Assembly: GCF_001593285.1 (NCBI RefSeq)
Contig: NZ_CP012529.1
Coordinates: forward strand, 2,294,001 to 2,358,000
Length of the DNA stretch: 64,000 nucleotides
Direction: 5' to 3'
Origin: Psychrobacter sp. P2G3
GTDB lineage: Bacteria; Pseudomonadota; Gammaproteobacteria; Pseudomonadales; Moraxellaceae
A program made the position numbers and the translations under genes. Under the pieces are notes generated by a model that saw only the letters and a list, made by a program, of their open reading frames with translations, had not been told where the DNA came from and ran no database searches. This document shows positions 126-17,755 of this stretch, in pieces. The number at the start of each line of letters is the position of its first letter. Position 1 is the first letter of the stretch.

Positions 126-318
126 TTTTTGACTCTAATCGTTTATAAGTACAAGAGTTCAGTCGGATAGCTGATTGCACTCTATATAAGCTATCAAGTG
201 TGTTAAAAGCACTTGATAGCTTTAAAAGTAAATGGACCTTGAAAAATTTTATTTAAAGATTAGTGTTTGAAAATAAATCTTAAGATAAACCAAGAACTAG
301 AATAAGGATTTGCTACCC

Positions 319-1071
319 ATGACTGCCACGTTTAGCCTAATCGGTACCATTGAGCCATTTTTGCATTGCAACCTTAAAAAAGGCGATTCGATTTATTGCG
401 AAGCTAATGCAATGGTGATGATGGAATCCAATCTTGAGCTTAAAGGTAAGTTGCAAGGCGGCTTGGTGCAGTCATTAATGCGCCGTTTCGCTAATGATGA
501 ATCACTTTTTCAGCAGCAGATTGAAGCGGTCAATGGTGAGGGCGATTGTTTGCTTGCGCCTACCCTAGACGGTGATATGCAAATTATTGATGTTGGCAAG
601 CAGCAATACACGTTGAGTGACGGTGCTTTTGTTGCCGCACAAACTGGCGTGGATATCAGAGCGAACATCCAGCGCAACCTTGGCGGAGCTGTATTCGGTG
701 ACACTGGTGGCTTTATGGTTATGCAAACCCAAGGGCAAGGTCAGGTCGTGGTATCGGGTTTCGGCTCGCTATTTGAGATTGACGTAACTCCAGATAAAGA
801 CGTTATCATCGATAACGGTCATGTCGTCTGCTGGGATTCAAACCTAGATTATAAGCTGTCGGTTTCTACCAGTAAGAAAAAAGGTATCATGAGTAACATT
901 ATCAATTCGGTCACCAGTGGTGAAGGTATGGTTTTGAACTTCTCAGGTACAGGTAAGGTTATCATCTGCTCACGCAATCGGGACAGCTATCAAGGTTGGT
1001 TACAAAGCATCTTGGGGACTAGCTCAGGGGGTCGCGGCGGTAGTGGTGGCTTTCTAGACAATATCTTATAA
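319..1071 (+). CDS. AIM24 / TIGR00266 family protein of the ter locus
   Basis: The 250-residue product resembles the AIM24 (former DUF124, TIGR00266) family: an all-beta, double-psi-like repeat protein rich in Gly and Val with no catalytic motif. AIM24 genes are regular companions of TerD genes, and this one sits between two of them. The C-terminus is a glycine-rich tail (GTSSGGRGGSGG) before the end. The frame could start at TTG 310, but ATG 319 is chosen because AAGGA at 304-308 is 10 bases upstream of it and only one base from the TTG. No signal peptide or membrane segment is visible, so it is probably cytoplasmic. Its molecular role is unknown. Confidence 0.8.
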   Translation: MTATFSLIGTIEPFLHCNLKKGDSIYCEANAMVMMESNLELKGKLQGGLVQSLMRRFANDESLFQQQIEAVNGEGDCLLAPTLDGDMQIIDVGKQQYTLSDGAFVAAQTGVDIRANIQRNLGGAVFGDTGGFMVMQTQGQGQVVVSGFGSLFEIDVTPDKDVIIDNGHVVCWDSNLDYKLSVSTSKKKGIMSNIINSVTSGEGMVLNFSGTGKVIICSRNRDSYQGWLQSILGTSSGGRGGSGGFLDNIL

Positions 1072-1224: not shown

Positions 1225-1833
1225 ATGGCAGTTAGTTTACAAAAGGGTCAAAAAATATCCCTAAGCAAAGAAGCTGGTGGCAACCTTACCCAAGTGAAGC
1301 TAGGTCTTGGTTGGGATGTCGCACAAGGACCTCAAGACAAAAAAGGCGGCTTCTTAGGTAAGTTGTTTGGCGGCGGCACTGGCGGCGACTCTATCGACTT
1401 AGATGCTTCATGCATTATGTTTGATAGCAATAAACAGCCCGTCGATGCTATTTGGTTCAGTCAGCTTAAATCAAAAGATGGCAGTATCGTTCATACAGGT
1501 GATAACCGCACTGGCGATGGTGACGGTGATGATGAAGTAATCAACGTTGATCTGTCAAAAGTACCTGCTGATGTGGTGTCATTGGTCTTTACCGTTAATA
1601 GCTTTACTGGACAGACGTTTGAAACAGTAGAGAATGCATTTTGCCGTATCGTCAATGCTGATAATAACTCAGAAGTAGCACGCTACAACCTATCTGCACA
1701 AGGTAGTCATACGGCAATGGTTATGGCAAAAGTATACCGCCACAACGATGAATGGAAGATGCATGCTATTGGCGAAACCGCTTCTGGTCGCACGTTCCAT
1801 GATTTGATGCCTGCTATTACACCGCATGCATAA
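1225..1833 (+). CDS. TerD-family (TerZ-like) tellurium resistance / stress protein
   Basis: The 202-residue product starts with MAVSLQKGQKISLSKEAGG and has the family signature GLGWD followed by IDLDASC. An acidic calcium-binding loop, HTGDNRTGDGDGDDE, lies at about residues 91-105. Family length is about 190-200 residues, and a Gly/Lys-rich insertion after GLGWD (KKGGFLGKLFGGGTGG) is typical of TerZ. TerD proteins bind Ca2+ and are thought to form peripheral-membrane stress scaffolds; the link to tellurite is genetic. It lies downstream of the AIM24 gene with a MITE-like element between them, and a strong terminator follows. Confidence 0.9.
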   Translation: MAVSLQKGQKISLSKEAGGNLTQVKLGLGWDVAQGPQDKKGGFLGKLFGGGTGGDSIDLDASCIMFDSNKQPVDAIWFSQLKSKDGSIVHTGDNRTGDGDGDDEVINVDLSKVPADVVSLVFTVNSFTGQTFETVENAFCRIVNADNNSEVARYNLSAQGSHTAMVMAKVYRHNDEWKMHAIGETASGRTFHDLMPAITPHA

Positions 1834-2174: not shown

Positions 2175-3608
2175 ATGTCAAAGAACAAAATTGATAATAC
2201 AGATTTAGTGAGTACGCAAAAGAAAAAATTTGAGATGCCGCATATTTACGTCATATTATTTGTATTTAGTGCTATTGCTGCTATTCTTACGCACTTTGTA
2301 CCCTCTGGCAAATACGACCGAGTTCTTGGGCCAGAAGGTAGAACAACCATTGATGCCACGTCCTACCATCTTATAGAGCAAACTCCAGTTGGTGTCACCG
2401 AATTTCTAACTGCCGTGCCTAGAGGTCTTATCGATGCAGGTGAAGTCGTGTTCTTCACATTTATTATCGGTGGTATGTTTATGGTACTTAGAAGAACAGG
2501 AATTATCGAAGTTGCTGTTGATAAGCTAGCTCGAAAATTTGCAAATAACGGCTTGCTATTAATAGCAGTACTAACAACAACATTTGCTTTTATTGCCACA
2601 TTAATTGGTACACCGGAATTATCATTAGTATATATTCCAGTCATTATGCCCTTAATTATTGCCTTAGGATACGACTCGGTAACGGCTGCTGCAATTGCAC
2701 TATGTGGAACTGGTGCTGGTTTTAGCGCCGGTGTGCTCAATCCAATCAATACGGGGCTTGGACAAAAGTTGTCTGGACTACCAGTGTTCTCAGGAATGGG
2801 ATTACGTTCAATCGTATTCGTTTTAGCAGTCACTACAGTTATTTTCTTTATTATAAGATATGCAAAGAAAGTTAAAAACAATCCATCCAAAAGTTACGTC
2901 TATGAAGAGGACAGTGAAAAGAGAATAGAGTTTAATCAAATTGTCGGCGGTACTGCTCTTACCATGTCATTTCGTCAAAAGCTAGCTGCATACGCAATGC
3001 TTATTCTATCCGTAGTACTAGTATACGGAGTACTTAAGCAGGGTTGGTTCATGGTAGAGATGTCCGGACTATTTGTCATCATGGGCATCGTAGTTGGAAT
3101 GATTGCTGGTCTTAAGCTTACTGAAATATGTGATGGGTTTAACCAAGGCTTTAAAGATGTATTAATGGGAGCATTCATTGTTGGCTTAGCTCGTGCAGTT
3201 GCTGTAGTCTTAGAAGATGGCAATGTTATGGACACAATTGTACATTCTTTAGGCGTATTAGTTGGAGATCTACCTCCTGAGCTTGCAGCTGTTGGCATGT
3301 ACTTTGTTCAAACAGCAATTAATTTTGTGATCTCTTCTGGTAGTGGACAAGCCCTTGTTACTATGCCTATTATGGCGCCACTTGCTGACCTTGTAGGTGT
3401 AACTAGACAGACTGCAGTTCTAGCCTATCAACTTGGTGATGGCTTTACTCATGTTCTTTTCCCAACTAGTGGATATTTTATGGCAGCATTAGTTATCGCT
3501 GGTGTTCCTTATCAAAAGTGGTTACGCTTTTTCTTACCTATTTTTGCAGTTTGGGCCATGATTGCCATTGGCGCGCTAATTATCGCTCAGATTATTGGTT
3601 GGTCATAA
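2175..3608 (+). CDS. YfcC/DcuC-family membrane transporter
   Basis: The 477-residue product has about a dozen hydrophobic segments and resembles the YfcC branch of the DcuC (C4-dicarboxylate carrier, PF03606) superfamily. Landmarks are an early HFVPSGKYDRV, then IGTPELSLVYIPVIMPLI, a glycine-rich GAGFSAGVLNPINTG hairpin, and SSGSGQALVTMPIMAPLAD in the second half. Family members move carboxylates or amino-acid-like substrates across the inner membrane; the substrate here is unknown. It faces a LytS/LytTR two-component pair tail to tail, an arrangement recalling the E. coli BtsSR and YpdAB systems, which control carboxylate transporters. I infer it is the pair's target. Confidence 0.85.
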   Translation: MSKNKIDNTDLVSTQKKKFEMPHIYVILFVFSAIAAILTHFVPSGKYDRVLGPEGRTTIDATSYHLIEQTPVGVTEFLTAVPRGLIDAGEVVFFTFIIGGMFMVLRRTGIIEVAVDKLARKFANNGLLLIAVLTTTFAFIATLIGTPELSLVYIPVIMPLIIALGYDSVTAAAIALCGTGAGFSAGVLNPINTGLGQKLSGLPVFSGMGLRSIVFVLAVTTVIFFIIRYAKKVKNNPSKSYVYEEDSEKRIEFNQIVGGTALTMSFRQKLAAYAMLILSVVLVYGVLKQGWFMVEMSGLFVIMGIVVGMIAGLKLTEICDGFNQGFKDVLMGAFIVGLARAVAVVLEDGNVMDTIVHSLGVLVGDLPPELAAVGMYFVQTAINFVISSGSGQALVTMPIMAPLADLVGVTRQTAVLAYQLGDGFTHVLFPTSGYFMAALVIAGVPYQKWLRFFLPIFAVWAMIAIGALIIAQIIGWS

Positions 3609-3679: not shown

Positions 3680-4423
3680 TTATAATCCAAGCGCTTTTTT
3701 GATTGCTTTAACGTACGAGCGACTTACCGAGATTTTAGAGCCATTTTTTAGTACAATTAAATAAGTTCGATTGAACCAAGGCTCTAAAACTGCTATTTGT
3801 TTGATATTAACGATATAGCCTCTATGCACTTGGATAAAATTATTACCAAGTTTTTCCTTCATTTTATAAAGTAAGGTATCTGTTAGGTATTTTTTTTCTA
3901 GGGTTTGAATATAAGCTTGACGATTTTCAGTACCAATATATAGAATATCTTTAGTATCGATGACAATGATTCGATCATTTTCTTTTACTGTAATGCTATG
4001 TTTTTTCTCTTTATTTATTGAGGGTACGAGTTCAACATTATTCTCTAAATGAGACGTACTATTCAAGTTTGCTAACTTGTCCACCGCTTTTAGTAGCCTG
4101 ACTTTATCAATGGGCTTAACGATATAATCTATAGCATCAAGCTCAAAGGCGTCTAATGCGTACTCACCATAAGCAGTTACGAATACAACCATAGGACGTT
4201 TTTTCATATTGTTAAATTGCTTTGCAAGATCAAGGCCGTTACCATTTTCAAGTTCTATATCCAAAAACACAGCGTCGGGTTGCTTCTCATTAATATCCCA
4301 TAACGCCTGATGCGTGTCTTCTGCCTCACCGATCACTTTTATCTTCCCTGTATCATGTAGAAGATAAATCAGCTCTTGCCTAGCTAATATCTCATCCTCA
4401 ATAACATACACATTCATCCGCAT
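3680..4423 (-). CDS. LytTR-family response regulator
   Basis: The 247-residue product has an N-terminal receiver domain (residues 1-120) with acidic pocket residues near 9-11, phospho-acceptor Asp55 in AVFLDIE, Thr in VTAYG and Lys in VKPID. A LytTR DNA-binding domain (about 145-245) contains ILYIGTENRQAYIQT and a typical FIQVHRGYIVN core. It starts 6 bases after the kinase stop codon, so the two are translationally linked. ATG 4417 is an alternative start with somewhat better spacing to the AGGGA site. It probably activates the neighbouring transporter gene through the paired repeats at 2026-2057. Confidence 0.92.
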   Translation of the reverse strand: MRMNVYVIEDEILARQELIYLLHDTGKIKVIGEAEDTHQALWDINEKQPDAVFLDIELENGNGLDLAKQFNNMKKRPMVVFVTAYGEYALDAFELDAIDYIVKPIDKVRLLKAVDKLANLNSTSHLENNVELVPSINKEKKHSITVKENDRIIVIDTKDILYIGTENRQAYIQTLEKKYLTDTLLYKMKEKLGNNFIQVHRGYIVNIKQIAVLEPWFNRTYLIVLKNGSKISVSRSYVKAIKKALGL

Positions 4424-4429
4424 TCTTCC

Positions 4430-6178
4430 CTAATCTTTAGCTGGCAATATAATTGAAACACAAGTTCCTATACCAATATCACTATCTACACTAAAGCGGA
4501 CCTCTTGATTATACAATGCTGTCAGTCGTTCTTTTATATTAAAAAGTGCAGTACCACTTCCATCTTTAGACGAGGTTACAACACGCTCACCTAAATCCAC
4601 TATTCGGTTTGATTCAATACCAACGCCATTGTCAGATACTTTGATTGAAATTAAGATCTCTGATACTTTTTTAATTTCAATACAAACCGCACCTTTTACT
4701 TGTAACCTTTTAAATCCACCATGCTTTATCGCGTTTTCAACTAAGGGTTGAATGATAAATGGAGGAATAAGATAATCCATTAAATCAGAATCTATCTCTA
4801 TACGCATCGCAAACTTGTCTGGAAAGCGAGCTTGCTCAATAGCTAAATAGGCCTGTACATTATCCATTTCTTTATAGATAGGGACCAAAAAATCGCCAAT
4901 ACCTGTCAAATTATTTCGTAAATAAGTTGATAAATGTACTAATAGATTTCGCGCCAGCATTGGATCAATTCTACATAAAGCGACGATAGTATTAAGAGCA
5001 TTAAATAAAAAATGCGGCTGCAGTTGGGATTGTAGTGATTCGATTTTTGCACTTTGTAGTAGTTGGTTATGACGCTCAATCTCACCAAGCTCTAACTGAT
5101 TTGAGAACAGCTTCCCTAATCCTTCGATCAACTCTTTTTCGACGGAAGTAATGTGTGCTGAGCTTCTATAGTAGAAGCTAAGGGTACCAATTACCTTATT
5201 TTTTACGCAAAATGGGACTACCACAGAAGCTCTACTATTAGGTTTATTCGAAAACAGCCATTTTGACTTTGATTCATTTAATACGGATTTGCCCGTTGCT
5301 AAAACTAACTTACGCGAAATCAAATCTTCTTTATCATTTCTCTTTTGATTGGTTACTTCTCCAGTATAAGCCAGCTCACGTAACCCTCTAGTAATCGCTA
5401 CATGCTCTACAGCAGTTAATTTTTTAATAATTTCTGTACTTTTTTTAGCCGAGTTTTCATTCAAACCCGATCGAAATAAGGAAAAGGTTTGATCAGCAAT
5501 TGAGAATGTTTTGACCGTTTGATTTGCTCTCGTTCGCTCTTCTTCTTGTATGGCATTATAAAAAATCATCGCACAAATCCATATACCAATACTATTTATA
5601 ATGATAATTGGGGGACCTGTAAAACTAATTAATGTAAGAGCAGCAGTATAATCGGCAGTTAAGACTGGAATGACTAAAATTTGAATGGTTAAAATAACAA
5701 TACTAATAAAAAACATATATTTGGGCTTGATTAAACCTACTCCGCGCCACTTATATCCAAACCATCCTGCAAGGCAACCGCCTAAAATAGATACCCAAAA
5801 AGTAGCGCTGCTGATAAAGCCACCCATTAGTAAGCGATGAGCTCCTGCAATTAGAGAGGCTCCTACACCAACTATCGGACCTGCAAAAAATCCACCGATA
5901 ATGATGCCAATATTTCGTGTGTCCACTACTGCATTGTTTGATTGAAGAGTAGGGTTCCATAAATCAGATATAATGGTATGGTTCCCTGGTTCTACAACAA
6001 GGGCCGTATAATTACCAATTACTCCAAACATACCGAATATCATGGTTAAGAAAAATAAGTCAACTATTCCAACTCGGTGGTAAATCATTTTTCTAAAGAT
6101 AGATAGTCTAGTTATCAAAAAAGCAATAGTGATAATAAGGGTCATTCTTGATAGCATTTGTGTCAGTATTTCCCACAT
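4430..6178 (-). CDS. LytS-type sensor histidine kinase
   Basis: The 582-residue protein has an N-terminal membrane domain of about six segments (residues 1-215) with the 5TMR-LYT pattern (DTRNIGIIIGGFFAGP, AGAHRLLMGG). A GAF-like domain follows (about 225-370), then the HisKA_5 segment QSQLQPHFLFNALN with phospho-acceptor His389, and an ATPase domain with PFIIQPLVENAIKHG and DNGVG. This is the domain order of E. coli YpdA and BtsS. It shares an operon with the LytTR regulator. The ligand is unknown; by analogy it would be an extracellular carboxylate or peptide signal. Confidence 0.92.
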   Translation of the reverse strand: MWEILTQMLSRMTLIITIAFLITRLSIFRKMIYHRVGIVDLFFLTMIFGMFGVIGNYTALVVEPGNHTIISDLWNPTLQSNNAVVDTRNIGIIIGGFFAGPIVGVGASLIAGAHRLLMGGFISSATFWVSILGGCLAGWFGYKWRGVGLIKPKYMFFISIVILTIQILVIPVLTADYTAALTLISFTGPPIIIINSIGIWICAMIFYNAIQEEERTRANQTVKTFSIADQTFSLFRSGLNENSAKKSTEIIKKLTAVEHVAITRGLRELAYTGEVTNQKRNDKEDLISRKLVLATGKSVLNESKSKWLFSNKPNSRASVVVPFCVKNKVIGTLSFYYRSSAHITSVEKELIEGLGKLFSNQLELGEIERHNQLLQSAKIESLQSQLQPHFLFNALNTIVALCRIDPMLARNLLVHLSTYLRNNLTGIGDFLVPIYKEMDNVQAYLAIEQARFPDKFAMRIEIDSDLMDYLIPPFIIQPLVENAIKHGGFKRLQVKGAVCIEIKKVSEILISIKVSDNGVGIESNRIVDLGERVVTSSKDGSGTALFNIKERLTALYNQEVRFSVDSDIGIGTCVSIILPAKD

Positions 6179-6301: not shown

Positions 6302-7594
6302 CTACTTGCGCCCACGCTTCCAACTAAATCCCCAGTTAAAGGCTTTGTCCATTTCTTGATGGCCTTTAAAATATTGGTTAATACGCTCAACATTGATACT
6401 ACCTTGCTGGTTGACCAAACGTGCAATACCGCACATCGGCAAATTGCCTGTCCCTTCCGTTAATCGTGTTTCGATGGGTGGCTGATCTGGCACATGAATG
6501 GTCACTACCCCATCCGTTTGCGCCCAGTTCGGTGCACCTTCGTAGATAAAAGCAAAGATGAATACTTCCTCAATCTGTGACCACTGTTGACCATTAATAT
6601 CAAGCCACTCACCGCCGCTGACTTGTCCGGTTCTATCATCAGCACGTAACAACACATAAGGCGCTGATTGTAGATTACCGAAGCGATTTCCCAAGGCTTG
6701 AATCAGTGTTTTTTCGCCATTTTTCAGATGAATCATTGCACCAACGTCGAGATCAATACCGCCTTTACCATGCTGCTTAAATAAATCGCCTAGCAAGCCT
6801 TTTTTAGGCGCTTGCTTGTCAATATTTGGGCGTTGGTTCCAGTTTAGGTTGACAGATATTTTGCCAAAATCATCGCGTTTTTTAAGATTAATACTAGATT
6901 GGTTTTTGGTTAAGGTGATTTTGCTTAAATTGATTGAAGGGCTAGTGGAGCTTGTAGGAATCGGTGGTGGTGTACTTGCTTTATTTGCAGAACTGCCTGC
7001 TTTTTGCGTGTTAATAGGTCTTTGGGTATTGATAGGTTGTGACTGGTTCTGACCTTGACTTTGAGCTTGGGACTGAGCCGGCGCTTCATCCGCAATCTCA
7101 ACACCGAAATGCTCAGACAACGGTTTAAGACCACCTTCAAAACCTTGAGCGATAAAGCGAAACTTCCAGCTACCTTGCCGACGATAACATTCAGCTAAGA
7201 TAATGGCTTTTTCATTACGTCCAGTGCTACTAAGTTGGCAAGTCATCAATATTTGGCTGCCTTGTAGCACTTGAATATCTACATCGCCGACTTGAGCAAG
7301 CGTCTGCGCGCTAGAAAACGCAAGGGCAATCTTCTCAATACTCGCGGGCTGCACAGGCAAGTTGATATCAAAAAACCCATCGCTATCATGACCTCGGAAA
7401 CTCACGCTACCATCATCACTACGCGTCTGTCCATAAAATATCATGTCACCATCGCCGCGTACTTTACCTTCACTTGTTAGGCGATAAGCGGCACAATCGA
7501 TAGCATTTTGGCTTAAAATTCTGATACTAATATTATCAGTTGGTAGTGGTGCATTAGCACCTGCAACCAGTTTTTGAGGTTGGGCTTGACTCAT
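6302..7594 (-). CDS. two-domain TerD-family protein (TerA-like)
   Basis: The 430-residue protein has two TerD-like modules, about residues 20-170 and 225-425. They are joined by a Gln/Pro/Ser-rich, probably disordered linker (QSQAQSQGQNQSQP, then TPPPIPTSSTSPS). The second module keeps LNWNQRP and the GGIDLDVGAMIHL strand, and each module has an acidic turn (YGQTRSDDGSV, LRADDRTG). Two fused TerD domains and this length match TerA. It is divergent from the ATP-grasp gene at 7866, with 271 bases between them. TerA is part of the core ter stress complex; its biochemical action is unknown. Confidence 0.87.
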   Translation of the reverse strand: MSQAQPQKLVAGANAPLPTDNISIRILSQNAIDCAAYRLTSEGKVRGDGDMIFYGQTRSDDGSVSFRGHDSDGFFDINLPVQPASIEKIALAFSSAQTLAQVGDVDIQVLQGSQILMTCQLSSTGRNEKAIILAECYRRQGSWKFRFIAQGFEGGLKPLSEHFGVEIADEAPAQSQAQSQGQNQSQPINTQRPINTQKAGSSANKASTPPPIPTSSTSPSINLSKITLTKNQSSINLKKRDDFGKISVNLNWNQRPNIDKQAPKKGLLGDLFKQHGKGGIDLDVGAMIHLKNGEKTLIQALGNRFGNLQSAPYVLLRADDRTGQVSGGEWLDINGQQWSQIEEVFIFAFIYEGAPNWAQTDGVVTIHVPDQPPIETRLTEGTGNLPMCGIARLVNQQGSINVERINQYFKGHQEMDKAFNWGFSWKRGRK

Positions 7595-7865: not shown

Positions 7866-8993
7866 ATGGATAACTCTGAAAACACCAATCGTAATACAAC
7901 AGTAGCCGCTTGGTTAGCTGAAGGTCAATCCAGCCAGCGTGATATGTTAGCAAGCTTGCAATCCCTAAAAACCAGATTTGATACGCCATTTAATATCATT
8001 GCGTCCCATCGCCACAATAGACCTGAGATTTTTGAATTTGCTGATAGTTTTTACCTTGAGCCATCTTTAAATCCCTTAGATGATAATGAGCAACCGATAC
8101 CCGAAGCTATTATTCCACGCTGGCAATTTGTACTGGAACAAGCCAAGCAGCATAACGTGAAAGTGCTACTTACGGGTCGCAATGGTATCGACTACGAGGC
8201 GCAGCGCGAAGCATTTAGTGCGGCTGGTATTCGTCTATTGACAGGGGCAACTAGCGTAGTAGCATTAGAATCAATCGATGACAAGTTTGCCTTTATGCAG
8301 CATTGCCACTTGCATAATATTCCAGTTGCAGATGCGTGGCGTTTTGATAATACTGCTGAACTTGACGCTTTACTTGCCGAACATGGTCATCAACCATTAT
8401 GTGTTAAGCCTGTTACCGGTATATTTGCACAAGGATTTTGGCGACTTGATTCAGGTAAAGAAGAGGATGAGACCTACGATAGCTTTGAGCATCTGTACTT
8501 TACCGAAGAGAAGAAGATTAATACCGACCAGTTTTTGAATGCCTATACTAATAGCCAAATGATACACGAACGTCCTATTCCAATGCTGTTGATGCCTTAC
8601 TTATCAGGGCAAGAGTATTCTATCGATGTTGTGTGCGAATATGGTGAAGTCTTAGCAGCAATCACTCGCCATAAAACCGGTAAAATCCAGCACATCGGCT
8701 ATGAGCGGTCAGTTATGGATGTCGTCATTCCATTGATTAAAGTTTTTGGCTGCGATGGTATCGTCAGTGTACAGACTAAGGCAGATGATGCTGGCCAGCA
8801 GCGCGTCCTTGAGATTAACAGTCGCCCATCAGGTGGTATTGGCTATACGACTCACAGCGGTGTAGACTTAACGCAAGTAGGATTTTCCTATTGGTTAGGC
8901 TTAACTGAAAAACCTGATTTAGATGATATCATCCAGAAGATTACACCTTGTCAAGTACGCTCCATTATGACAAGTGTCATGATCGATGATTAG
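7866..8993 (+). CDS. ATP-grasp enzyme of the ter biosynthetic module
   Basis: The 375-residue product has the ATP-grasp layout. A preATP-grasp part occupies about residues 1-120. It is followed by LESIDDKFAFMQHCHLHNIPVAD, the LCVKPVTG lysine strand, MPYLSGQEYSIDVVC, and the metal-binding VLEINSRPSGG near residue 315. It fits the ter-associated ATP-grasp group (ATPgrasp_Ter), thought to ligate carboxylates to amines in an unidentified pathway. ATG 7866 is preferred over in-frame ATG codons at 7770 and 7779 because GAGAG precedes it at good spacing. The first gene of the predicted ter biosynthetic set, it is separated from the others by the MHYT/V4R pair. Confidence 0.85.
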   Translation: MDNSENTNRNTTVAAWLAEGQSSQRDMLASLQSLKTRFDTPFNIIASHRHNRPEIFEFADSFYLEPSLNPLDDNEQPIPEAIIPRWQFVLEQAKQHNVKVLLTGRNGIDYEAQREAFSAAGIRLLTGATSVVALESIDDKFAFMQHCHLHNIPVADAWRFDNTAELDALLAEHGHQPLCVKPVTGIFAQGFWRLDSGKEEDETYDSFEHLYFTEEKKINTDQFLNAYTNSQMIHERPIPMLLMPYLSGQEYSIDVVCEYGEVLAAITRHKTGKIQHIGYERSVMDVVIPLIKVFGCDGIVSVQTKADDAGQQRVLEINSRPSGGIGYTTHSGVDLTQVGFSYWLGLTEKPDLDDIIQKITPCQVRSIMTSVMIDD

Positions 8994-9071
8994 ATGATTA
9001 CTTAAATTATCCTAAAAGTAGTGAGTTACAGCATCTAAAGGACTGAGCAGATTTTTTAAACAGTCAGGCAC

Positions 9072-9110
9072 AAAAAAGGTTTTTAGATATAAATCTAAAA
9101 ACCTTTTTTT
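9072..9110 (+). terminator. intrinsic terminator after the ATP-grasp gene
   Basis: The stem AAGGTTTTTAGAT / ATCTAAAAACCTT has a short loop and is followed by T7. The flanking A run makes it usable from the opposite strand as well, where it follows the MHYT gene. Confidence 0.85.
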
Positions 9111-9170
9111 ATGGCTCTCTTCACTCAGCTGTAGGAGTGATAATTGCTTATAATTATATAGCTATAATAG

Positions 9171-9911
9171 TTACTCGCCAAATACTAGAGTTGCTTTCTT
9201 AGGTGCGTTATAAGAAGCAGCGGCCCATAGCAAGCTCAATACAATTACCGAACCTACAAAGATAGTAAGCGATGAAGTAAACGCGCTTGAATTATTATAA
9301 CCCATAGACATCATTTCACCTGTATGAGTCATCTCCATAGCCGCCATACCAGTATAGTGCATACCGCAAACTGCTATACCCATGATGAACGCGCTACCAA
9401 AACGTTGTAGATTTCCACGTAGGTTAAATGCCAACCACAGTGCTGCAATAGCGGCTACGATAGCAATAACAATTGAGGCAATTAAAAGTGTCGTGTTGTA
9501 CGACATAGTTGCATCCATCTGCATTGAAGCCATACCAGTGTAATGCATCGCTGCAACGCCAAGACCCGTTAGTGTACCGCCGCCTAATAATTTGGCAATG
9601 CTTGGTGTACCACGGCCTACGATAATAATTCCAACTGCAACAAACACAATTGCAAGCAACATAGAGACAATTGTCATACCGATATTATAAGTAACAGGCA
9701 TCTGCATATCGACTGCCATCATACCAATGTAGTGCATTGACCAAATTGCGCCACCAATAGCAATTGAAGATAACGCTACCCAAAAATATAGATCTGATCC
9801 TGGTTTTGCAGCTGGAACCCGAATAGCAAGGTTTAAACCAACATAAGAACCAAATACTGCAATCGCGTATGAAACAAGCACCAAAAGCATGTCATATTGA
9901 ACTTCAATCAT
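9171..9911 (-). CDS. stand-alone MHYT-domain membrane protein
   Basis: The 246-residue protein consists of seven hydrophobic segments with three MHYT signatures (SMHYIGMMAV, AMHYTGMASM, GMHYTGMAAMEMTH). This is the complete MHYT sensor domain, proposed to bind copper and sense O2, CO or NO. No GGDEF, EAL or kinase output domain follows, so any output must come from a partner. ATG 9911 is preferred to the upstream ATG 9953 because AAGGGTAGAAAA precedes it and MHYT proteins usually begin close to a YDxxLV motif. It lies 125 bases downstream of a V4R-domain gene on the same strand. Confidence 0.88.
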   Translation of the reverse strand: MIEVQYDMLLVLVSYAIAVFGSYVGLNLAIRVPAAKPGSDLYFWVALSSIAIGGAIWSMHYIGMMAVDMQMPVTYNIGMTIVSMLLAIVFVAVGIIIVGRGTPSIAKLLGGGTLTGLGVAAMHYTGMASMQMDATMSYNTTLLIASIVIAIVAAIAALWLAFNLRGNLQRFGSAFIMGIAVCGMHYTGMAAMEMTHTGEMMSMGYNNSSAFTSSLTIFVGSVIVLSLLWAAASYNAPKKATLVFGE

Positions 9912-10036
9912 TTTTCTACCCTTCATATTTAATAAAAACTGAGCATAAGACAACGCTGGTTTGGTTGAACCGAGGTGCTTAATACGTTTACTATTTATTG
10001 TTCATAGGAATTGAATTTCCTATGAATGATTACTTT

Positions 10037-10741
10037 CTATCTAATGCTAAATTCACAAATATTGGTACTACCAGATCCGCAACTGGTTTCCTCAACGCTC
10101 GCTCTCCCTACTGCAGGGTTGGCCGTCAAGAATCCTTCTATATAACCTACAACAAAGTGGCAACCTGAATGATTGGTATCTGATGGACCACAAAATGGAC
10201 ATCTAATTAATGTGATTACGTTCTCACCTGCTTTCACTTTAGAAAAGTCTTTTAATGCTGGGACAAGCTCTCGACTAATCGCCGCCGATTTTTTTAACGG
10301 GCTACCAAGAGCATAGTCGCGTTGGTAAATACCGCCGCCGACCTTGCGACCCAATTCATGCAATGCAGCAGCACGCTTATCACTTGCCAAACTTTCTTCA
10401 TATTGTTTGACGACATCAACTATATTTGGATACTGCGCTCCGATAGCCGCTAGAATAGCTTTCTCATCTAACGCTTTTTTATTCGGTGCTACCGTTTCTT
10501 CGTCTTCAGAAATTTCTAGGTTGAACAATGTACAACCGGCAATAGAAGATAAGTCATCGACTAAATCAGCTTGCGTTTTCGATCCCTGACTTCTGGCAAC
10601 CACATAAATAATGTTTCCACCATTTTCTGATGGTTCTTGTTTCTGCGATACTAGTTGATAACCTGCTTTAATAAGAGGTGAAATAACGTTGACTAGGCGA
10701 ATGCGTTCAGACGACGTTTCCAATGCGCAAGAAAATTTCAA
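10037..10741 (-). CDS. V4R (4-vinyl reductase-like) domain protein
   Basis: The 234-residue soluble protein has an N-terminal alpha/beta part of about 85 residues, a helical middle, and a C-terminal V4R-like domain. The domain shows ALHELGRKVGGGIYQ and then CPFCGPSDTNHSGCHFVVGY, and it ends with ETSCGSGSTNICEFSIR. V4R domains bind small hydrophobic ligands, and several conserved Cys residues near the end could hold a metal. No DNA-binding domain is visible. It is probably co-transcribed with the MHYT gene downstream. The function is inferred only from the fold-like motif pattern; a sensory role is the best guess. Confidence 0.65.
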   Translation of the reverse strand: MKFSCALETSSERIRLVNVISPLIKAGYQLVSQKQEPSENGGNIIYVVARSQGSKTQADLVDDLSSIAGCTLFNLEISEDEETVAPNKKALDEKAILAAIGAQYPNIVDVVKQYEESLASDKRAAALHELGRKVGGGIYQRDYALGSPLKKSAAISRELVPALKDFSKVKAGENVITLIRCPFCGPSDTNHSGCHFVVGYIEGFLTANPAVGRASVEETSCGSGSTNICEFSIR

Positions 10742-11786
10742 AGACCACTCCTTTTTCTGAAAATATAGCTAGAATTTTCTAATACCAAGCTATTTAAACA
10801 AAGCTGATAATTAAAATAAACCGCATACGATTTTTTATAGAATCGTCCCGAATTTATTATACTATTTATTTAATATTTACAATATGTAATTAATGATAAT
10901 ATTGTAACTTATATTTTGGATGAATTTTTGTCGCATAATCGTTATTGGACCACAAACCTATACTTCTTACATATCAACTCTATGCTCTTTACCTATTAAT
11001 TAGCAGTCGTTTATTTATTTCCATAAGTCCAAAAAACAAATAACTTATCGGCAACATAAAACCAGTCAGATACACTAAATTATCAATAATATCAGTATCT
11101 TAAATAATTTCTTCTTAACGGTTACTTATATGACAACGAAAAGTAAACTAGAAAACAAAGGTAAAAATCCTAAGTTTAAAAATATAAATTTTGTTTCCTT
11201 CTTTATCATTGAGAAACTATAACAGTACTAAGTTCTCAGAAGGATTTCGTCAGCATTATTACTCAAGGTATACACACTAGCAAGTCTTAACGCGATATCG
11301 TCCGATAGAGGGTGATATCATCCGATAAATGACATTGAGATAGTGACATACATGATTAAAGTCAGAATAGGAGAGAGATTTTCGTTTAAAGGTCATAGCT
11401 TAAATAGCGTTTTTATTTGACTTAATTTTTGTTGGATAAATCTAGTTGAACTATGGCTGAACTGACTTGTTACCCAGTCTAGTGAAAGTCCAACTATCAC
11501 GTTATTCATGATCAACGAATATTGCTTTAGGCTTCCTACTGTCGGGAGTCACTACAAGTCTTTTTGTGACTATTCATAAAATATGCGCTATATGACGAAA
11601 TTTCAGTTATTATCTGCGCTATTAGCGAACGCTTAAATCGTTTCGGACAACTCGTTTGGTTGGTCATTCATGACAGCTACACCTCTGACTACACTATAAT
11701 TAAGCAAGCAAAGCCGCAGCACGTTATGGCTGTTGTAATTGATAGAATTTATAACTATACAAGATCAAAAGTACAAAGGAATATTA
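10742..11786. other. 1-kb AT-rich intergenic region with a paired direct repeat
   Basis: No convincing gene is seen on either strand. The region separates the divergent V4R and PRTase genes and must hold their promoters. Two 14-bp direct repeats, GATATCGTCCGATA at 11294-11307 and GATATCATCCGATA at 11314-11327, are spaced 20 bp (13 of 14 bases match). A 30-codon frame at 11130-11222 has no ribosome binding site and is not called. The gap is unusually long for this window, so it may hold a lost gene or a small RNA. Confidence 0.5.
11294..11327. repeat. 14-bp direct repeat pair, operator-like
   Basis: Two near-identical copies of GATATCRTCCGATA start 20 bp apart, about two helical turns. They lie 460 bases before the PRTase gene. 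This could be a regulator binding site. Confidence 0.4.
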
Positions 11787-13055
11787 ATGTCAAATAAGCA
11801 ACACAGCACCACTATTAACTTACCGCGAGGTAATCTTGATCTCACCTATCAACTTAACGATACTTCAGGTAGTAAAGCGACTTATCAACTAGAAGAACTA
11901 TTGAGCTTTGCGCAACGTATAAACCCCAAACGCGCATTTCTATTCGTCTCAAAAGTCTTAGGTCGTCATATTCCAGTCGCACCTAGTACCATGCGCAGTG
12001 CTTTTACTGATTTGGCAAATTTAGTACCTAATGATTTACCCGAGCCGATTTTGGTCATTGGTATGGCAGAGACTGCCGTTGGGCTATCTGCTGGTGTGCA
12101 TCAAGCGCTACAAACGCGCTATCCGAATGCACTACTATTAAACTCTACGCGTCATGCGCAACATAGTGGCAATAATGACAAAAGCAGCGACTCTTTGTTG
12201 ACCACTTTTAGCGAAGACCACAGTCATGCCAGCCAACATTTAATTTATCAAAGCTCTGATAAAGTCACCCAAGAGCAATTACTTGCTAGCAAGACGCTTA
12301 TTATGGTCGATGATGAAGCCTCAACGGGCAATACTTGCGTCAATGTCGTGACTGCCCTACGTAATGCTGGACTCGCACAATTAGAGCAAGTACATCTCAC
12401 CACTTTGGTTGATTGGTCCCTAAATCAGAATCAGGGTACAGCTGATGCAGACGATACAATATCTACTCGTTTGCCTAATATAGACTTTCATCGTCATCAT
12501 TTATTGTCTGGTGCATGGCAATGGACGGATGCACCCGACCCTGAACCTATTATCATGCCATCGGTCGATACGACAGAGGCTGGCAGTCAGCCATTAGGCA
12601 ACACTGGTAATTGGGGACGCTTCCCAACGCTAGATAGCACAGATGGATTTGATAATTATCTGGAGAAGTTTCAAACTGCATTTACGCGTTTTAGTGAGCA
12701 AGCACAGTTTGATAAAAAGCAATTACCTGAGCGGATTTTGGTATTGGGTAGTAATGAGTTTGTGTGGTTGCCGTTTTTATTGGCGGAATGGCTTGAGCAA
12801 ACTGCTAGCTTAAATAGTGACAATCAGACAGTTAAATTTAGCGCCTTGACACGCTCACCGATTGCACTTGGTGGTGCGATTACCACCATGCTAAGCTTTA
12901 GCGACAATTATGGTCTAGGTATGACCAATTTTGCTTATAACGTTGAGCCAAGCGATTGGGATTTGATTGTGCTTTGTGTAGAAACGGCTTCTGATAGCGT
13001 GGATGACATGTGGCAAGGTTTGGATAATGTGTTGGTGGTGAGTCCTACACTTTGA
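11787..13055 (+). CDS. PRTase_2 / TRSP-domain phosphoribosyltransferase of the ter module
   Basis: The 422-residue product has an N-terminal phosphoribosyltransferase domain with the PRPP loop LIMVDDEASTGNTC near residue 180. The C-terminal TRSP domain shows the name-giving motif (FSALTRSPIALGGAI, about residue 355). This pairing (PRTase_2 plus TRSP) is characteristic of ter-locus biosynthetic operons, predicted to build a nucleotide-like metabolite. ATG 11787 is chosen because AAAGGA lies 6 bases upstream; the frame extends to ATG 11739 without a ribosome binding site. It heads a run of four genes reading the same way. Confidence 0.87.
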   Translation: MSNKQHSTTINLPRGNLDLTYQLNDTSGSKATYQLEELLSFAQRINPKRAFLFVSKVLGRHIPVAPSTMRSAFTDLANLVPNDLPEPILVIGMAETAVGLSAGVHQALQTRYPNALLLNSTRHAQHSGNNDKSSDSLLTTFSEDHSHASQHLIYQSSDKVTQEQLLASKTLIMVDDEASTGNTCVNVVTALRNAGLAQLEQVHLTTLVDWSLNQNQGTADADDTISTRLPNIDFHRHHLLSGAWQWTDAPDPEPIIMPSVDTTEAGSQPLGNTGNWGRFPTLDSTDGFDNYLEKFQTAFTRFSEQAQFDKKQLPERILVLGSNEFVWLPFLLAEWLEQTASLNSDNQTVKFSALTRSPIALGGAITTMLSFSDNYGLGMTNFAYNVEPSDWDLIVLCVETASDSVDDMWQGLDNVLVVSPTL

Positions 13056-13097
13056 ACTATCCTCTAAATCATAATCTGATTTTCAAATCTATTATTT

Positions 13098-13928
13098 ATG
13101 GACGCTTTTATGACTACCCCATTCTTCAAGACCAGTCCCGACATCATCAAACCCTACGCGCTAATGGATTTGGACGATACGCTTTTTCAAACCCAACGCA
13201 AAATTGATGCATGGGATTTGCCAATGGCTGAGTCTGAAAACTTAGTCTGCGCCACGGTTAATAAAAAAGGCGAGCCGTTAAGTTTTATGAGCCAGCGCCA
13301 AGCGTCATTCTTTAATTGGTTGCTTGCTAGCACTGAATTAATAGTAGTAACCGCGCGCGACCGTAGCGAAATCAAACGTGTAAAGCTACCTTTTGACAGT
13401 TGGCAAGTTTTGACTCATGGCGCGATTATTTTAACAGCTGATGGCGAACTATTAAGCGCATGGCAACAGCATATGTATGAGCAGCTTAGCCTCTTGCAAG
13501 ACAAACTTCACCAGCTAAGCCAATTATTCGCGGATCACAGTAGAAAAGATGACAGTCAATTGGTATTTACACCGCATATTGATAGCTTTAATAATGGTTC
13601 TGCTAATGAGGAGCTCACCATTTATCTGGCTATTAAACATGCGCAAAAAAACCATCAAGCGCTAGTAGAATTAGCTGCACAGTTACCTAATCTAATACGT
13701 GATTTTGATCAGGATTTTTATGTGCACGTCAACGCAAATAATCTCGCAATACTGCCACATGCGGTTCATAAGCATCATGCGGTACAGTTTTTATTAGACC
13801 ATCATTTAGACAGTCAACGTCCGAGTTTTGGCTTTGGTGACAGTCTGGCAGATTTACCTTTTCTGCAACTGCTTGACTGGTATGGTATGCCTAATCATGG
13901 TCAACTGCACGACAATCTTAACTCTTAA
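13098..13928 (+). CDS. HAD-superfamily hydrolase of the ter module
   Basis: The 276-residue product has HAD motif I ALMDLDDTLFQT (Asp24, Asp26), a motif II-like VVTARDRSEI, and motif IV FGFGDSLADLPFL near residue 256. A cap insertion occupies the middle. These enzymes usually dephosphorylate sugars or nucleotides. It lies 42 bases after the PRTase_2 gene and 78 before the StiP-type gene, fitting the predicted order of the ter biosynthetic operon, where it would remove a phosphate from the PRTase product. ATG 13110 is an equally possible start. Confidence 0.85.
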   Translation: MDAFMTTPFFKTSPDIIKPYALMDLDDTLFQTQRKIDAWDLPMAESENLVCATVNKKGEPLSFMSQRQASFFNWLLASTELIVVTARDRSEIKRVKLPFDSWQVLTHGAIILTADGELLSAWQQHMYEQLSLLQDKLHQLSQLFADHSRKDDSQLVFTPHIDSFNNGSANEELTIYLAIKHAQKNHQALVELAAQLPNLIRDFDQDFYVHVNANNLAILPHAVHKHHAVQFLLDHHLDSQRPSFGFGDSLADLPFLQLLDWYGMPNHGQLHDNLNS

Positions 13929-14006
13929 TAATTTTCGGCGATTAACAACTCTCAAATATCAATAATTATAATAACGATAGCAGCTTATACGAGTAAAAAA
14001 CCTCCT

Positions 14007-15197
14007 ATGACCACTCCCAATATTCAAAAACTCGATAAATACGGCTCAGGCAGTTACCTTGCCAGCGATGTAACAGTGCTACTCGATATCGTTGATAAAG
14101 ACGCGGTTGCAGACGTGCCGGTTAGCAAAAAAGAAGCGCTTATTCAAAGTGGCCAGCGCCATTATTCAGACATGCTGACCTTAGAGAAAGCACCGTCAGC
14201 CATGCATGAGCAATTATACGCGCAGGCATTAGAGCAAGGCACAAATAGAACCGCGACTGATATCGCTAATTTAGCGCATACGTTACACAATACTTTCGAG
14301 CAAACGGTTAGTGCTGAGCGCCCATTAATATTGGTCAGCTTAGTACGAGCAGGTTTGCCAGTTGGAGTATTATTACAACGTGCCCTATCAGATAATGAAA
14401 GGTCAGATGCCGATAGCGACTACTCTCTGCCCAGTGTGCATTACGGTATTAGCATCATCCGTGATCGTGGCCTTGATCCAGTCGCTTTACAGATGATATT
14501 ACACGCTTACCCAGACAGCCCCATCGTATTCGTTGATGGCTGGACAGGGAAAGGCGCTATTTATCAAGAGCTTGCTCATAGCTTAGAAGTCTTTAGTGAC
14601 CCTAGCCATCCCAATTTTGCCAATATTTTTCATCAAGGAAAAGACGCCATCCCGCTACTTACACTCGCTGATCCAGCGGGCGTAGCATGGCTAGCTGCTA
14701 GTGAAGAAGACTGGTTGATCCCATCAGGTTTATTAAATAGCACGGTGTCGGGATTGATTTCACGTAGTCTTTATACTGAGCCGCAATCAGGTCTACATCG
14801 CAGTGTTTTTTATGATAATTTAGTAGAAGCAGATCATAGCTTAGCGTTTATCGATCATATTGATACAGCACGACGTGCATTAACGATACCTTTGCAACGT
14901 TTGCCAACATTTAAGCAGCCGCGCTATCAGACTGCTGATTTAATAGATAAGCTAGCTGCAGACTACAATATCACCAATCGTAACCGTATCAAGCCGACGA
15001 TTGCAGAGGCGACACGCGCCATATTACGCCGCGATCCCGAGCGCATTCTACTGGCTACTGCCGAGCATCCCGATACCGTGTTATTGCGACATTTATGTGC
15101 GCAGCGAGATATTAATATTACTGTGTTAGGTGCTAAAATACTCCCCTATCAAGCCATCACTCTTATCAAGCAACGCACAACAGACAGCCAATCATAA
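14007..15197 (+). CDS. PRTase_3 (StiP-type) / PELOTA-domain protein of the ter module
   Basis: The 396-residue product matches the family often labelled cysteine protease StiP, which is better explained as a phosphoribosyltransferase-like domain. It has LVSLVRAGLPVGVLLQRAL, HYGISIIRDRGLD, and a PRPP-loop-like VFVDGWTGKGA near residue 175. The C-terminal 70 residues (PTIAEATRAILRR to ILPYQAITLIK) resemble the PELOTA-like RNA-binding domain fused to these proteins. No good ribosome binding site precedes the start; the sequence CCTCCT is there instead. Tight spacing to its neighbours suggests translation in the operon context. Confidence 0.83.
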   Translation: MTTPNIQKLDKYGSGSYLASDVTVLLDIVDKDAVADVPVSKKEALIQSGQRHYSDMLTLEKAPSAMHEQLYAQALEQGTNRTATDIANLAHTLHNTFEQTVSAERPLILVSLVRAGLPVGVLLQRALSDNERSDADSDYSLPSVHYGISIIRDRGLDPVALQMILHAYPDSPIVFVDGWTGKGAIYQELAHSLEVFSDPSHPNFANIFHQGKDAIPLLTLADPAGVAWLAASEEDWLIPSGLLNSTVSGLISRSLYTEPQSGLHRSVFYDNLVEADHSLAFIDHIDTARRALTIPLQRLPTFKQPRYQTADLIDKLAADYNITNRNRIKPTIAEATRAILRRDPERILLATAEHPDTVLLRHLCAQRDINITVLGAKILPYQAITLIKQRTTDSQS

Positions 15198-15264
15198 GTA
15201 GGATAAGCGTCCGACGCTTTTGTCCCTGCACTATCATTCACTACTATTTACGATAACATCTACT

Positions 15265-16344
15265 ATGTCAGAAAAAACGTCCAGCCTTTATAATTATACT
15301 CAGTCTTATGAACACCTGATCACTGAGCGTCATGCTATGATCAAGCCGCATACCCATCACCCTTATCAACTTGGCGCTAGCCTTTATATGCCAGCTACTC
15401 GCCAAGACATTTGGCAAGTCATTAAGCGTGACAAATTACCGACGATTAATAGCATTATCATTTGTTTAGAAGACGCGGTTAGCCATAGTGATGTTGAGTT
15501 GGCACTCGAGCGCTTGCAGGTACTGCTCCATACGTGGTCGGCACATGTTAATAGTATTAATGAGCCAACCAGACAAGCTAATCTTCAATCAGAGCAGCAA
15601 TCAAAGCAGCAAAACCAGCAGCCGACGCGACCATTGGTCTTTGTACGTCCACGTAATCCGGCCATGCTACAGCAGCTAGCAGATTTTGCTCACATTGATC
15701 TGATTGATGGCTTCGTCATGCCTAAAGTCGATATGTATAGCTTATCCAATTGGCGTATGGCCTGTCAGAATGTAAGTACTGACCAGTTATTGATGCCGAC
15801 CTTAGAGACTGCAGCCCTATTCAACCCGCATCATAATCAAGAGTTAGCGATTGGCTTTAAAGAAGCCTTTAGTCAGCCAGTCTTTGCCCTACGTATCGGT
15901 GGCAATGATCTGTTTGCCGCGCTGCGTTTGCGCCGTCCGAAAGACAGCATTGTCTACGATACTCCGATTGGTACTCTTGCCTATCAGTTACTTGGCTGTT
16001 TTGTACCGCATGGTTTTTATCTAAGCGCGCCAGTCTTTGAATATTTAGACCAGCCAACGCTATTTATGCAAGAGCTGACTCGCGATGTGAGCTTAGGTTT
16101 GGTCGGAAAAACCGTCATTCATCCAAGTCAGATTGCTTTGGTACAACAAGCTTACTGCGTGCCCCTTAGTATGCTAGATGAGGCGCAAGCGATACTCCAT
16201 AGTGAAGCGAAAGCTGTATTTAAATATAATAATACGATGTTAGAGCCTGCCACACACCGTGCTTGGGCGCATGAAGTGGTCAATCGTGCAGAAGTGTTTG
16301 GTACGATTAACGATGGTAATAGTGACTATAAAGCGCGCTTATAA
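15265..16344 (+). CDS. HpcH/HpaI-like TIM-barrel C-C bond lyase of the ter module
   Basis: The 359-residue product resembles the citrate lyase beta / HpcH aldolase family. Motifs are IIICLEDAVSHSD (acidic metal ligand), LVFVRPRNP, DGFVMPKVD, MPTLETAALF (second Glu) and LRIGGNDLFAALRLRR. The ter-associated subgroup is predicted to make or break a C-C bond in the same pathway as the PRTases. ATG 15265 is chosen by family fit; an in-frame TTG at 15220 is possible and neither has a strong ribosome binding site. It is the last gene of the four-gene run. Confidence 0.8.
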   Translation: MSEKTSSLYNYTQSYEHLITERHAMIKPHTHHPYQLGASLYMPATRQDIWQVIKRDKLPTINSIIICLEDAVSHSDVELALERLQVLLHTWSAHVNSINEPTRQANLQSEQQSKQQNQQPTRPLVFVRPRNPAMLQQLADFAHIDLIDGFVMPKVDMYSLSNWRMACQNVSTDQLLMPTLETAALFNPHHNQELAIGFKEAFSQPVFALRIGGNDLFAALRLRRPKDSIVYDTPIGTLAYQLLGCFVPHGFYLSAPVFEYLDQPTLFMQELTRDVSLGLVGKTVIHPSQIALVQQAYCVPLSMLDEAQAILHSEAKAVFKYNNTMLEPATHRAWAHEVVNRAEVFGTINDGNSDYKARL

Positions 16345-16514: not shown

Positions 16515-16549
16515 AAAAAGCCGCTATTCAATCAATGATAGCGGCTTTT
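16515..16549. terminator. bidirectional terminator
   Basis: The stem AAAAGCCGCTAT / ATAGCGGCTTTT lies between the convergent C-C lyase and alpha/beta-hydrolase genes. A run on one side and T run on the other serve both strands. Confidence 0.85.
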
Positions 16550-16571: not shown

Positions 16572-17384
16572 TTACACACAGCATTCTAGGAAATTACTCA
16601 TCACTGTATTTACTTGCTCAGGCTCTTCCACGGTCGCAGTATGACCAGCTCGCTCAATGACAGCAAGCTTGGAGCCTTTAATCGCAAAATGCATCCGCTC
16701 AGACTTGGCATATGGCGTCGCTGCATCTTCATCACCGACCACTATCAATGTCGGCGTCGTGATACTTCCCAGCTGATCATAAGTCCCCTTGCGCTCAATG
16801 ACGCCCATCGTGGCCTTGGACACACCAACCTTATTATTGCCTTGTATCTGTGCCAGCCAATCTTTGCATTCAGATTTGCGCGACTTGTCTGCTAAGAAGC
16901 TACTGCCAAACATAATCGGCATAACCTTTTTACTGACTCGCTTCATACCTAGCCAACGAATCGCTGTAATCAATTTGCGATATTGCGGTGCAGACTTAGG
17001 ATCTTCAGGATCAGATGACGTTTCTAACAATATCAATGAAGACAACAGCTCCGGGCGACTTATAGCGATACGTTGCCCGATAAATCCACCCATCGATAAA
17101 CCTACAAAATGGCAACTATCAATGTTAAGGGCATCAAGTAGCGCGATAGTATCATCGGCTAAAGTGTCCATATCATAGCCGGACTTAGTAATCTGCGACT
17201 GTCCCTGCCCGCGAAAATCAAAAGCGATGCAGCGATACTCATCTTGAAAGTGTGCTACCTGCTTATCATACATTCGTGTACTCCACAGTAGGCCATGAGC
17301 GAACACCATTACGGGTTTACTCTGATCATTAGGTGCACTGTCTTCGTAATAAATATTCGCATTGTTGATTTGAATATGAGGCAT
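16572..17384 (-). CDS. alpha/beta-hydrolase
   Basis: The 270-residue product has the complete triad: Ser97 in GLSMGG, Asp218 or Asp220 in VVGDEDAATP, and His248 in RAGHTATVE. The oxyanion HG motif is in FAHGLLW. The layout resembles 3-oxoadipate enol-lactonase and epoxide-hydrolase-like esterases, but no pathway genes are adjacent, so the substrate is open. No signal peptide is visible, so it is cytoplasmic. AAGGAAG precedes the start at good spacing. It is probably a single-gene unit, closed by the shared terminator at 16515-16549. Confidence 0.85.
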   Translation of the reverse strand: MPHIQINNANIYYEDSAPNDQSKPVMVFAHGLLWSTRMYDKQVAHFQDEYRCIAFDFRGQGQSQITKSGYDMDTLADDTIALLDALNIDSCHFVGLSMGGFIGQRIAISRPELLSSLILLETSSDPEDPKSAPQYRKLITAIRWLGMKRVSKKVMPIMFGSSFLADKSRKSECKDWLAQIQGNNKVGVSKATMGVIERKGTYDQLGSITTPTLIVVGDEDAATPYAKSERMHFAIKGSKLAVIERAGHTATVEEPEQVNTVMSNFLECCV

Positions 17385-17755
17385 AGAAACTTCCTTGTCT
17401 GATAATTATTTATAAGTAAAAAGCGATTAGCTCGTTTGTGAATGACTTTTTGGTACAAGCGTGAATGCTTTAGCATAAGACATAAGATATTTATTTCAAG
17501 TAATGTTTCTAATAATGAATGTAAGCAGCTTTAAACCCGTAAAGACCTCTCATTACCTATTAATTCCTGTCTATAGCTATGCGGAAATACTATCAAGATT
17601 AGTATGGCTTAAGCGCCCACAAAACCTGCTTTTATAATCATGACAAGCTGCTATAGTAAGCAGAATTAGCAACAAATACTGAATCATTTATTCGGATCAC
17701 TTTTCATTCATTATCGATCAATGTTAATCAGCCATTTAAAATAAGGAAATCAAAG
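17385..17755. other. divergent intergenic region, no gene seen
   Basis: This 371-base AT-rich gap lies between the divergent alpha/beta-hydrolase and crotonase genes. It must contain promoters for both. AAGGA lies 8 bases before the crotonase start. No clear -35/-10 pair, repeat or RNA structure could be supported by eye. Confidence 0.5.

Follow-up and report, generated by a model that had tools for sequence, protein, structure and literature searches.

Anantharaman, Iyer and Aravind reportedly predicted, in 2012, a Ter-linked module with a nucleoside-like product; its gene set comprises the same families as those described here, adjoining TerD-family genes. Ter loci have been connected with resistance to tellurite, phages, and colicins (PMC12054061, excerpt), and the idea that TerD proteins act as signal readers has been published (PMC7824862, excerpt). 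Here, we analyze a 64,000-nucleotide window of Psychrobacter sp. P2G3 (G000:C1:2294001-2358000 of a 3.37-Mb assembly) in which such a module extends from an ATG at 7866 to a stop at 16344. As the initial annotation held, five open reading frames span these positions and are matched by the expected Pfam families (profile search of the window proteins, E ≤ 0.01), and they make up a conserved Ter-linked enzyme module: two proteins with a modeled phosphoribosyltransferase (PRTase) fold, PRTase_2 and StiP, a phosphatase-type HAD protein, a CitE-type lyase, and an ATP-grasp protein. The module is genuine, conserved, and already predicted. Comparison of gene content across loci suggests that PRTase_2, HAD, and StiP constitute its core and that the lyase and ATP-grasp genes are accessory.

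Evidence for this division comes from 80 named loci, the best-scoring of 588, which are skewed to close relatives (24 Psychrobacter and 56 others). All 80 have PRTase_2, HAD, and StiP; 79 have the lyase, and 66 have ATP-grasp. Of the loci without ATP-grasp, L055, L057, and L071 are on contigs that are short or cut; split genes occur in L071 and L072, and L115 was scored as having ATP-grasp on the strength of a 75-residue piece. A genome-wide search gave no strong ATP-grasp match in any of the 12 genomes whose locus has none or, in L115, only this piece, while two positive controls gave E values of ∼1e-41. In a 79-row StiP tree (one row was dropped by a length filter, and L127 sits on a long branch of unsure placement), ATP-grasp absence corresponds to six changes, at least five of them forced by well-supported branches; gain and loss are not distinguished. 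Beside StiP in nine genomes of a 299-genome phylum sample, as read from fetched stretches of 5.4 to 20 kb or from the window, we found PRTase_2 in nine, HAD in eight, the lyase in five, and ATP-grasp in two. Local absences beside StiP were rechecked without the overlap filter, which had hidden the HAD gene of L135 and the StiP gene of L136. The trio stands without a local lyase or ATP-grasp gene in the fetched stretches of L127, L132, L133, L134, and L138. The order in L132 (8143-11399, genome G351) and L127 (7062-10478) is PRTase_2, StiP, HAD, and the fetched L127 stretch contains no TerD gene. On one contig of genome G077, ATP-grasp accompanies the ter genes at a distance of over 1 Mb from the remaining four module genes, and both parts persist. 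The proposal that the five genes form a single obligatory pathway is not supported, given the lack of a strong ATP-grasp match in these 12 of 12 tested genomes and the several genomes with no lyase beside StiP.

The five genes keep their motif residues in alignments of 74 to 119 rows per gene, which are redundant and often drawn from a single genus. PRTase_2 (11787..13055, plus strand; Pfam PRTase_2 E 2.3e-52) has a C-terminal TRSP domain (E 2.7e-17). The phosphoribosyl pyrophosphate (PRPP) loop of type I PRTases has two acidic residues followed by TG, and PRTase_2 carries this canonical motif in the loop VDDEASTGNT, with D175, D176, E177, T180, G181, and T183 in 91 of 91 rows. Its predicted fold is that of a PRTase of APRT type; PyrR and PurR are among its fold matches, and a PyrR profile match is weak (E 0.044). 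Sequence and model make PRTase_2 the leading candidate for the PRPP-using enzyme, as HAD is for the dephosphorylation. The HAD hydrolase gene (13098..13928, plus strand) is matched by the general family Hydrolase_3 alone (PF08282, E 2.7e-6) and does not reach the HAD-IIB subfamily cutoff (29.8 versus 41.8 bits). The signature of HAD hydrolases is DxD, T, K, GDxxxD, and the protein has DLDDT and GDSLAD, with D24, D26, T85, K180, G247, D248, and D252 in 99 to 100% of 116 rows.

Among the accessory genes, the predicted TIM-barrel C-C bond lyase (15265..16344, plus strand; C-C_Bond_Lyase E 1.5e-97) has 3qll as its best solved profile match (E 9.6e-12). Its residues E181, D215, H286-P287, and Q289, invariant in 19 rows, place it by sequence with the CitE type and presumably have the same roles as in citrate/acyl-CoA lyases. 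The ATP-grasp protein (7866..8993, plus strand; ATPgrasp_Ter E 3.2e-32) contains the motif LEINSRP and has K140, K181, E250, E316, N318, and R320 in all 74 rows; we take E316, N318, R320, K140, and K181 to be metal and ATP contacts. Loss of PRPP-loop or ATP-grasp residues had been raised as a threat to the reading of the module: none of these ATP-grasp residues is lost, and PRTase_2 retains its canonical loop, while the StiP loop is unusual in its single acidic residue. Median ratios of nonsynonymous to synonymous substitution (dN/dS) of the five genes are 0.042 to 0.093 against 20 to 23 Psychrobacter loci, rough values because synonymous differences are near saturation. By this sequence measure, all five are under strong purifying selection. 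The description of the module as intact thus holds for these five genes, but it overlooked a decayed sixth gene upstream of PRTase_2, described below.

Four of the five genes form a plus-strand run with gaps of 42, 78, and 67 bp, the last shortening to 22 bp if the lyase starts at an alternative TTG at 15220. This part of the proposed operon layout stands. ATP-grasp is apart in the window because two minus-strand genes, one for an MHYT-domain membrane protein outside the module (9171..9953; MHYT E 5.6e-50) and one for a V4R-like protein (10037..10741; V4R E 6.5e-5, under the family cutoff), intervene together with the remnant of the sixth gene. Relatives of these two genes occupy the same interval in 8 of the 24 named Psychrobacter loci. 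ATP-grasp is nonetheless close to PRTase_2 elsewhere: in 4 of 21 named Psychrobacter loci and in 24 of 45 others, the two genes overlap or lie less than 150 bp apart. In some Psychrobacter loci (L039 to L042), a peptide-transporter-like operon of ∼7 kb lies between PRTase_2 and HAD. It was considered as an extension of the pathway and rejected, as its translations read by eye as a peptide-transporter operon.

The module is unexceptional within its genus. The same 93 of 100 genus genomes have StiP, PRTase_2, and a strong lyase match, and 92 of these also have a strong ATP-grasp match; the count of the latter was restricted to E < 1e-30 because the ATPgrasp_Ter model scores above its own cutoff in 12 of 14 control genomes. 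The lone genome without one, G049, is 83% complete, and module genes are broken or split in G012, G058, G059, G076, and G088. Among the 120 StiP relatives in the matches listed, every species name given is Psychrobacter. Six of the seven genus negatives have a single distant TerD, while G075 retains five TerD matches. In G075 (L140 4900-6300), one deletion runs from within ATP-grasp to within a downstream hydrolase gene and leaves TerD, TerA-type, and AIM24 genes; at the junction, no more than 6 nt separate a match to the ATP-grasp gene at window 8109-8209 from the match to window 16996-17400 that comes after it. Genus-wide co-loss was considered as proof of a single pathway and set aside, since G075 represents one deletion and, in the remaining six negatives, a single distant TerD is all that is left.

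In the phylum sample, StiP scored over the cutoff in nine genomes and below it in 2 more; PRTase_2 did so in the same nine and below it in 16 more. This pairing is not chance, as the over-cutoff matches fall in identical genomes. TerD occurs in 39 of the 299 genomes, including eight of the nine with StiP. The remaining genome, G351, has the core and no TerD match anywhere; among 150 genomes of its order, StiP is found only in G351 and TerD in one other. StiP relatives are present on 2,568 of 72,556 plasmid records, mostly enterobacterial and 1,052 of them from Klebsiella.

The module had also been called complete. However, 38 of the 80 named loci (17 of 24 Psychrobacter and 21 of 56 others) and the viral contig L131 have a sixth gene, which is of 334 to 429 codons (its end in L071 is set by the contig edge) and lies upstream of PRTase_2. 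It combines a weak TerD-like part with a trypsin-type serine peptidase domain (PF13365, E 6e-20 to 1e-28 in five scanned). In the window, blastn and tblastn detect a remnant at 11527..11735 (plus strand). Positions 11548-11732 align by blastn with L065:7521-7700 (186 nt at 70% identity, E 8.6e-18), a stretch within the intact gene L065:6489-7718, and tblastn recovers pieces in two frames, with stops (best E 0.001). From these alignments, we conclude that the sixth gene is decayed at this locus, with only its tail remaining, and the module is therefore incomplete by the standard of its relatives. The gene is intact in those relatives, and the locus-linked peptidase is the sixth gene rather than StiP. 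The conserved stretch upstream of PRTase_2 was also considered as a regulatory RNA; this reading was rejected because the stretch is what remains of the peptidase gene's end, and an Rfam search of the window gave no match at gathering score.

StiP (14007..15197, plus strand) had been annotated as PRTase_3/StiP with a PELOTA-like end; the StiP (PF11202, E 1.4e-79) and PELOTA_1 (E 1.2e-22) families were recovered, while no PRTase_3 family was found at E ≤ 0.01. Foldseek alone gave no significant match, but a second look with VIA-align did, and the predicted fold is a purine-PRTase type (HGPRT-like) followed by a putative C-terminal L7Ae/PELOTA domain. Residues S111, R114, A115, G116, P118, G120, D177, W179, K182, and G183 are invariant in 119 rows. 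StiP lacks the canonical two-acidic PRPP loop; its loop reads VDGWTGKG, in which the only acidic residue, D177, is kept in 119 of 119 rows. Within the L7Ae-like domain, segment 326-344 has 14 of 19 columns at 95% versus 6 of 66 in the remainder. Sequence and model together suggest that a sugar-phosphate transferase with an RNA-binding-type end is a closer description of StiP than a protease, a role that is unlikely.

We regard the chances as evenly balanced that these genes form a Ter-linked small-molecule pathway with PRTase_2, HAD phosphatase, and StiP at its core, optional lyase and ATP-grasp steps, and TerD readers. PRTase_2 would transfer ribose-5-phosphate from PRPP to an acceptor that is a base or resembles one, as its canonical loop and APRT-like fold would allow, and HAD would remove phosphate to give a nucleoside-like compound. 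StiP might perform a second ribosyl transfer, or it might bind a pathway nucleotide and RNA. Optional tailoring could come from the CitE-like lyase and ATP-grasp ligase, which would build or attach an acyl or amide group, and the adjoining TerD-family proteins would be the likely readers of the product. The chemistry originally proposed, namely, PRPP transfer, dephosphorylation, C-C chemistry, and ligation, is one that we infer from family names.

Several observations weigh against such a pathway. Three records lack a core match: L137 (G212, a 10-kb contig) has PRTase_2, StiP, and the lyase with no HAD match; L143, a 15-kb virus-labeled gut record, has the same three plus three TerD genes and again no HAD match; and L141, from a Rhizobium plasmid, has StiP and a lyase fragment surrounded by insertion sequences, with no PRTase_2 match in 17 kb. 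The transferase activity of StiP is uncertain because its loop carries a single acidic residue, compared with two in PRTase_2. Co-loss at the genus level is weak evidence, and TerD is not obligatory, as the core of G351 stands without it.

Alternatively, StiP may be a PRTase-fold regulator of the PurR/PyrR kind that detects PRPP or a nucleotide, uses its L7Ae-type domain to bind RNA, and controls the ter response while PRTase_2 and HAD catalyze. We consider this possible but unlikely: the noncanonical loop is near-invariant across the family and segment 326-344 is far more conserved than the rest of its domain, yet the PyrR and PurR matches that would favor it belong to PRTase_2 and not to StiP, the 10 invariant residues suit a catalytic site, no RNA target has been described, and no Rfam family reached its gathering score in the window. 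Slightly less probable is a clean-up or salvage route for damaged or toxic nucleotides under oxidative or metal stress in which no new compound is made. HAD phosphatases of this broad type commonly have sugar or nucleotide phosphates as substrates, both PRTases have predicted folds of purine-salvage type, and ter loci are stress loci; however, a CitE-type lyase and an ATP-grasp ligase suit building better, and salvage leaves the TerD linkage in most loci unexplained. We doubt more strongly that the trio acts on RNA, with StiP holding a kink-turn-like RNA and, together with PRTase_2, transferring ribose-5-phosphate from PRPP to RNA or a bound base and HAD trimming phosphate; if so, the stress or anti-phage signal of the Ter system would be ribosylated RNA or an RNA-gated nucleotide. 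The notion of StiP as a cysteine protease in a proteolytic stress unit, which the initial annotation had kept in view and which the name of PF11202 and of database proteins favors, is highly improbable given that no cysteine column exceeds 49.6% of 119 rows, that the predicted fold is of PRTase type, and that the locus-linked peptidase is a separate trypsin-type gene, decayed here.

The ter neighborhood includes several genes to the left of the module. A minus-strand gene for a TerD-domain protein (6302..7594; TerD E 4.3e-28), which we take to be of TerA type, lies nearest to the module; farther left are plus-strand genes for another TerD-domain protein (1225..1833; E 2.2e-56) and an AIM24/TIGR00266 protein (310..1071; AIM24 E 2.3e-54), and a TerC/DUF475 gene and two further TerD genes are at or just left of the window edge. 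A LytS/LytTR-type two-component pair (3680-6178) lies within this neighborhood and adjoins a DcuC-type transporter (2175-3608). TerB is reported to be absent from a related Psychrobacter (PMC5822837, excerpt). Past the operon, a terminator-like hairpin (16516..16549, plus strand) has a 13-pair stem and then a T-rich tail and is a consensus match only; such hairpins number eight in the window versus a mean of 6.9 in shuffles and are weak evidence. A PADLOC search for known defense systems returned only weak generic PRTase matches.

A search of the open-license literature, outside which most subscription papers fall, found no report identifying the metabolite predicted in 2012, in keeping with the earlier statement that no product is established; the excerpt of PMC10318531 does not mention StiP. 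Points that may be new here are the division into core and accessory genes, the arguments against a protease role for StiP, the TRSP repeat, the decay of the peptidase gene, and a core that occurs without TerD. The module product matters in that StiP relatives occur on plasmids, mostly enterobacterial ones, and ter loci are linked to resistance.

The type I purine PRTases APRT and HGPRT share predicted folds with PRTase_2 and StiP, but the TRSP and L7Ae-type domains are extra here and the StiP loop differs. In contrast to the 2012 module, two unrelated genes set ATP-grasp apart in the window, and only a remnant of the peptidase gene is left. The ter locus of Klebsiella plasmid pK2044 likewise has a putative biosynthetic cluster, which there lies opposite terZABCDEF; its set, unlike ours, comprises 14 genes including terXYW, and terZ-F are enough for tellurite resistance in Escherichia coli (PMC8115787, excerpt). 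The ter region of Acinetobacter jumbo phage vB_AbaM_ME3 has, unlike the window, no lyase or ATP-grasp relative at E 1e-5, and it encodes PRTase_2, HAD, and StiP in the same order as here, overlapping and near a TerD gene (PMC7824862, excerpt). With this three-gene core also in a phage, the protease label unlikely, and a natural deletion in G075 that keeps the TerD genes, the metabolite question becomes easier to test.

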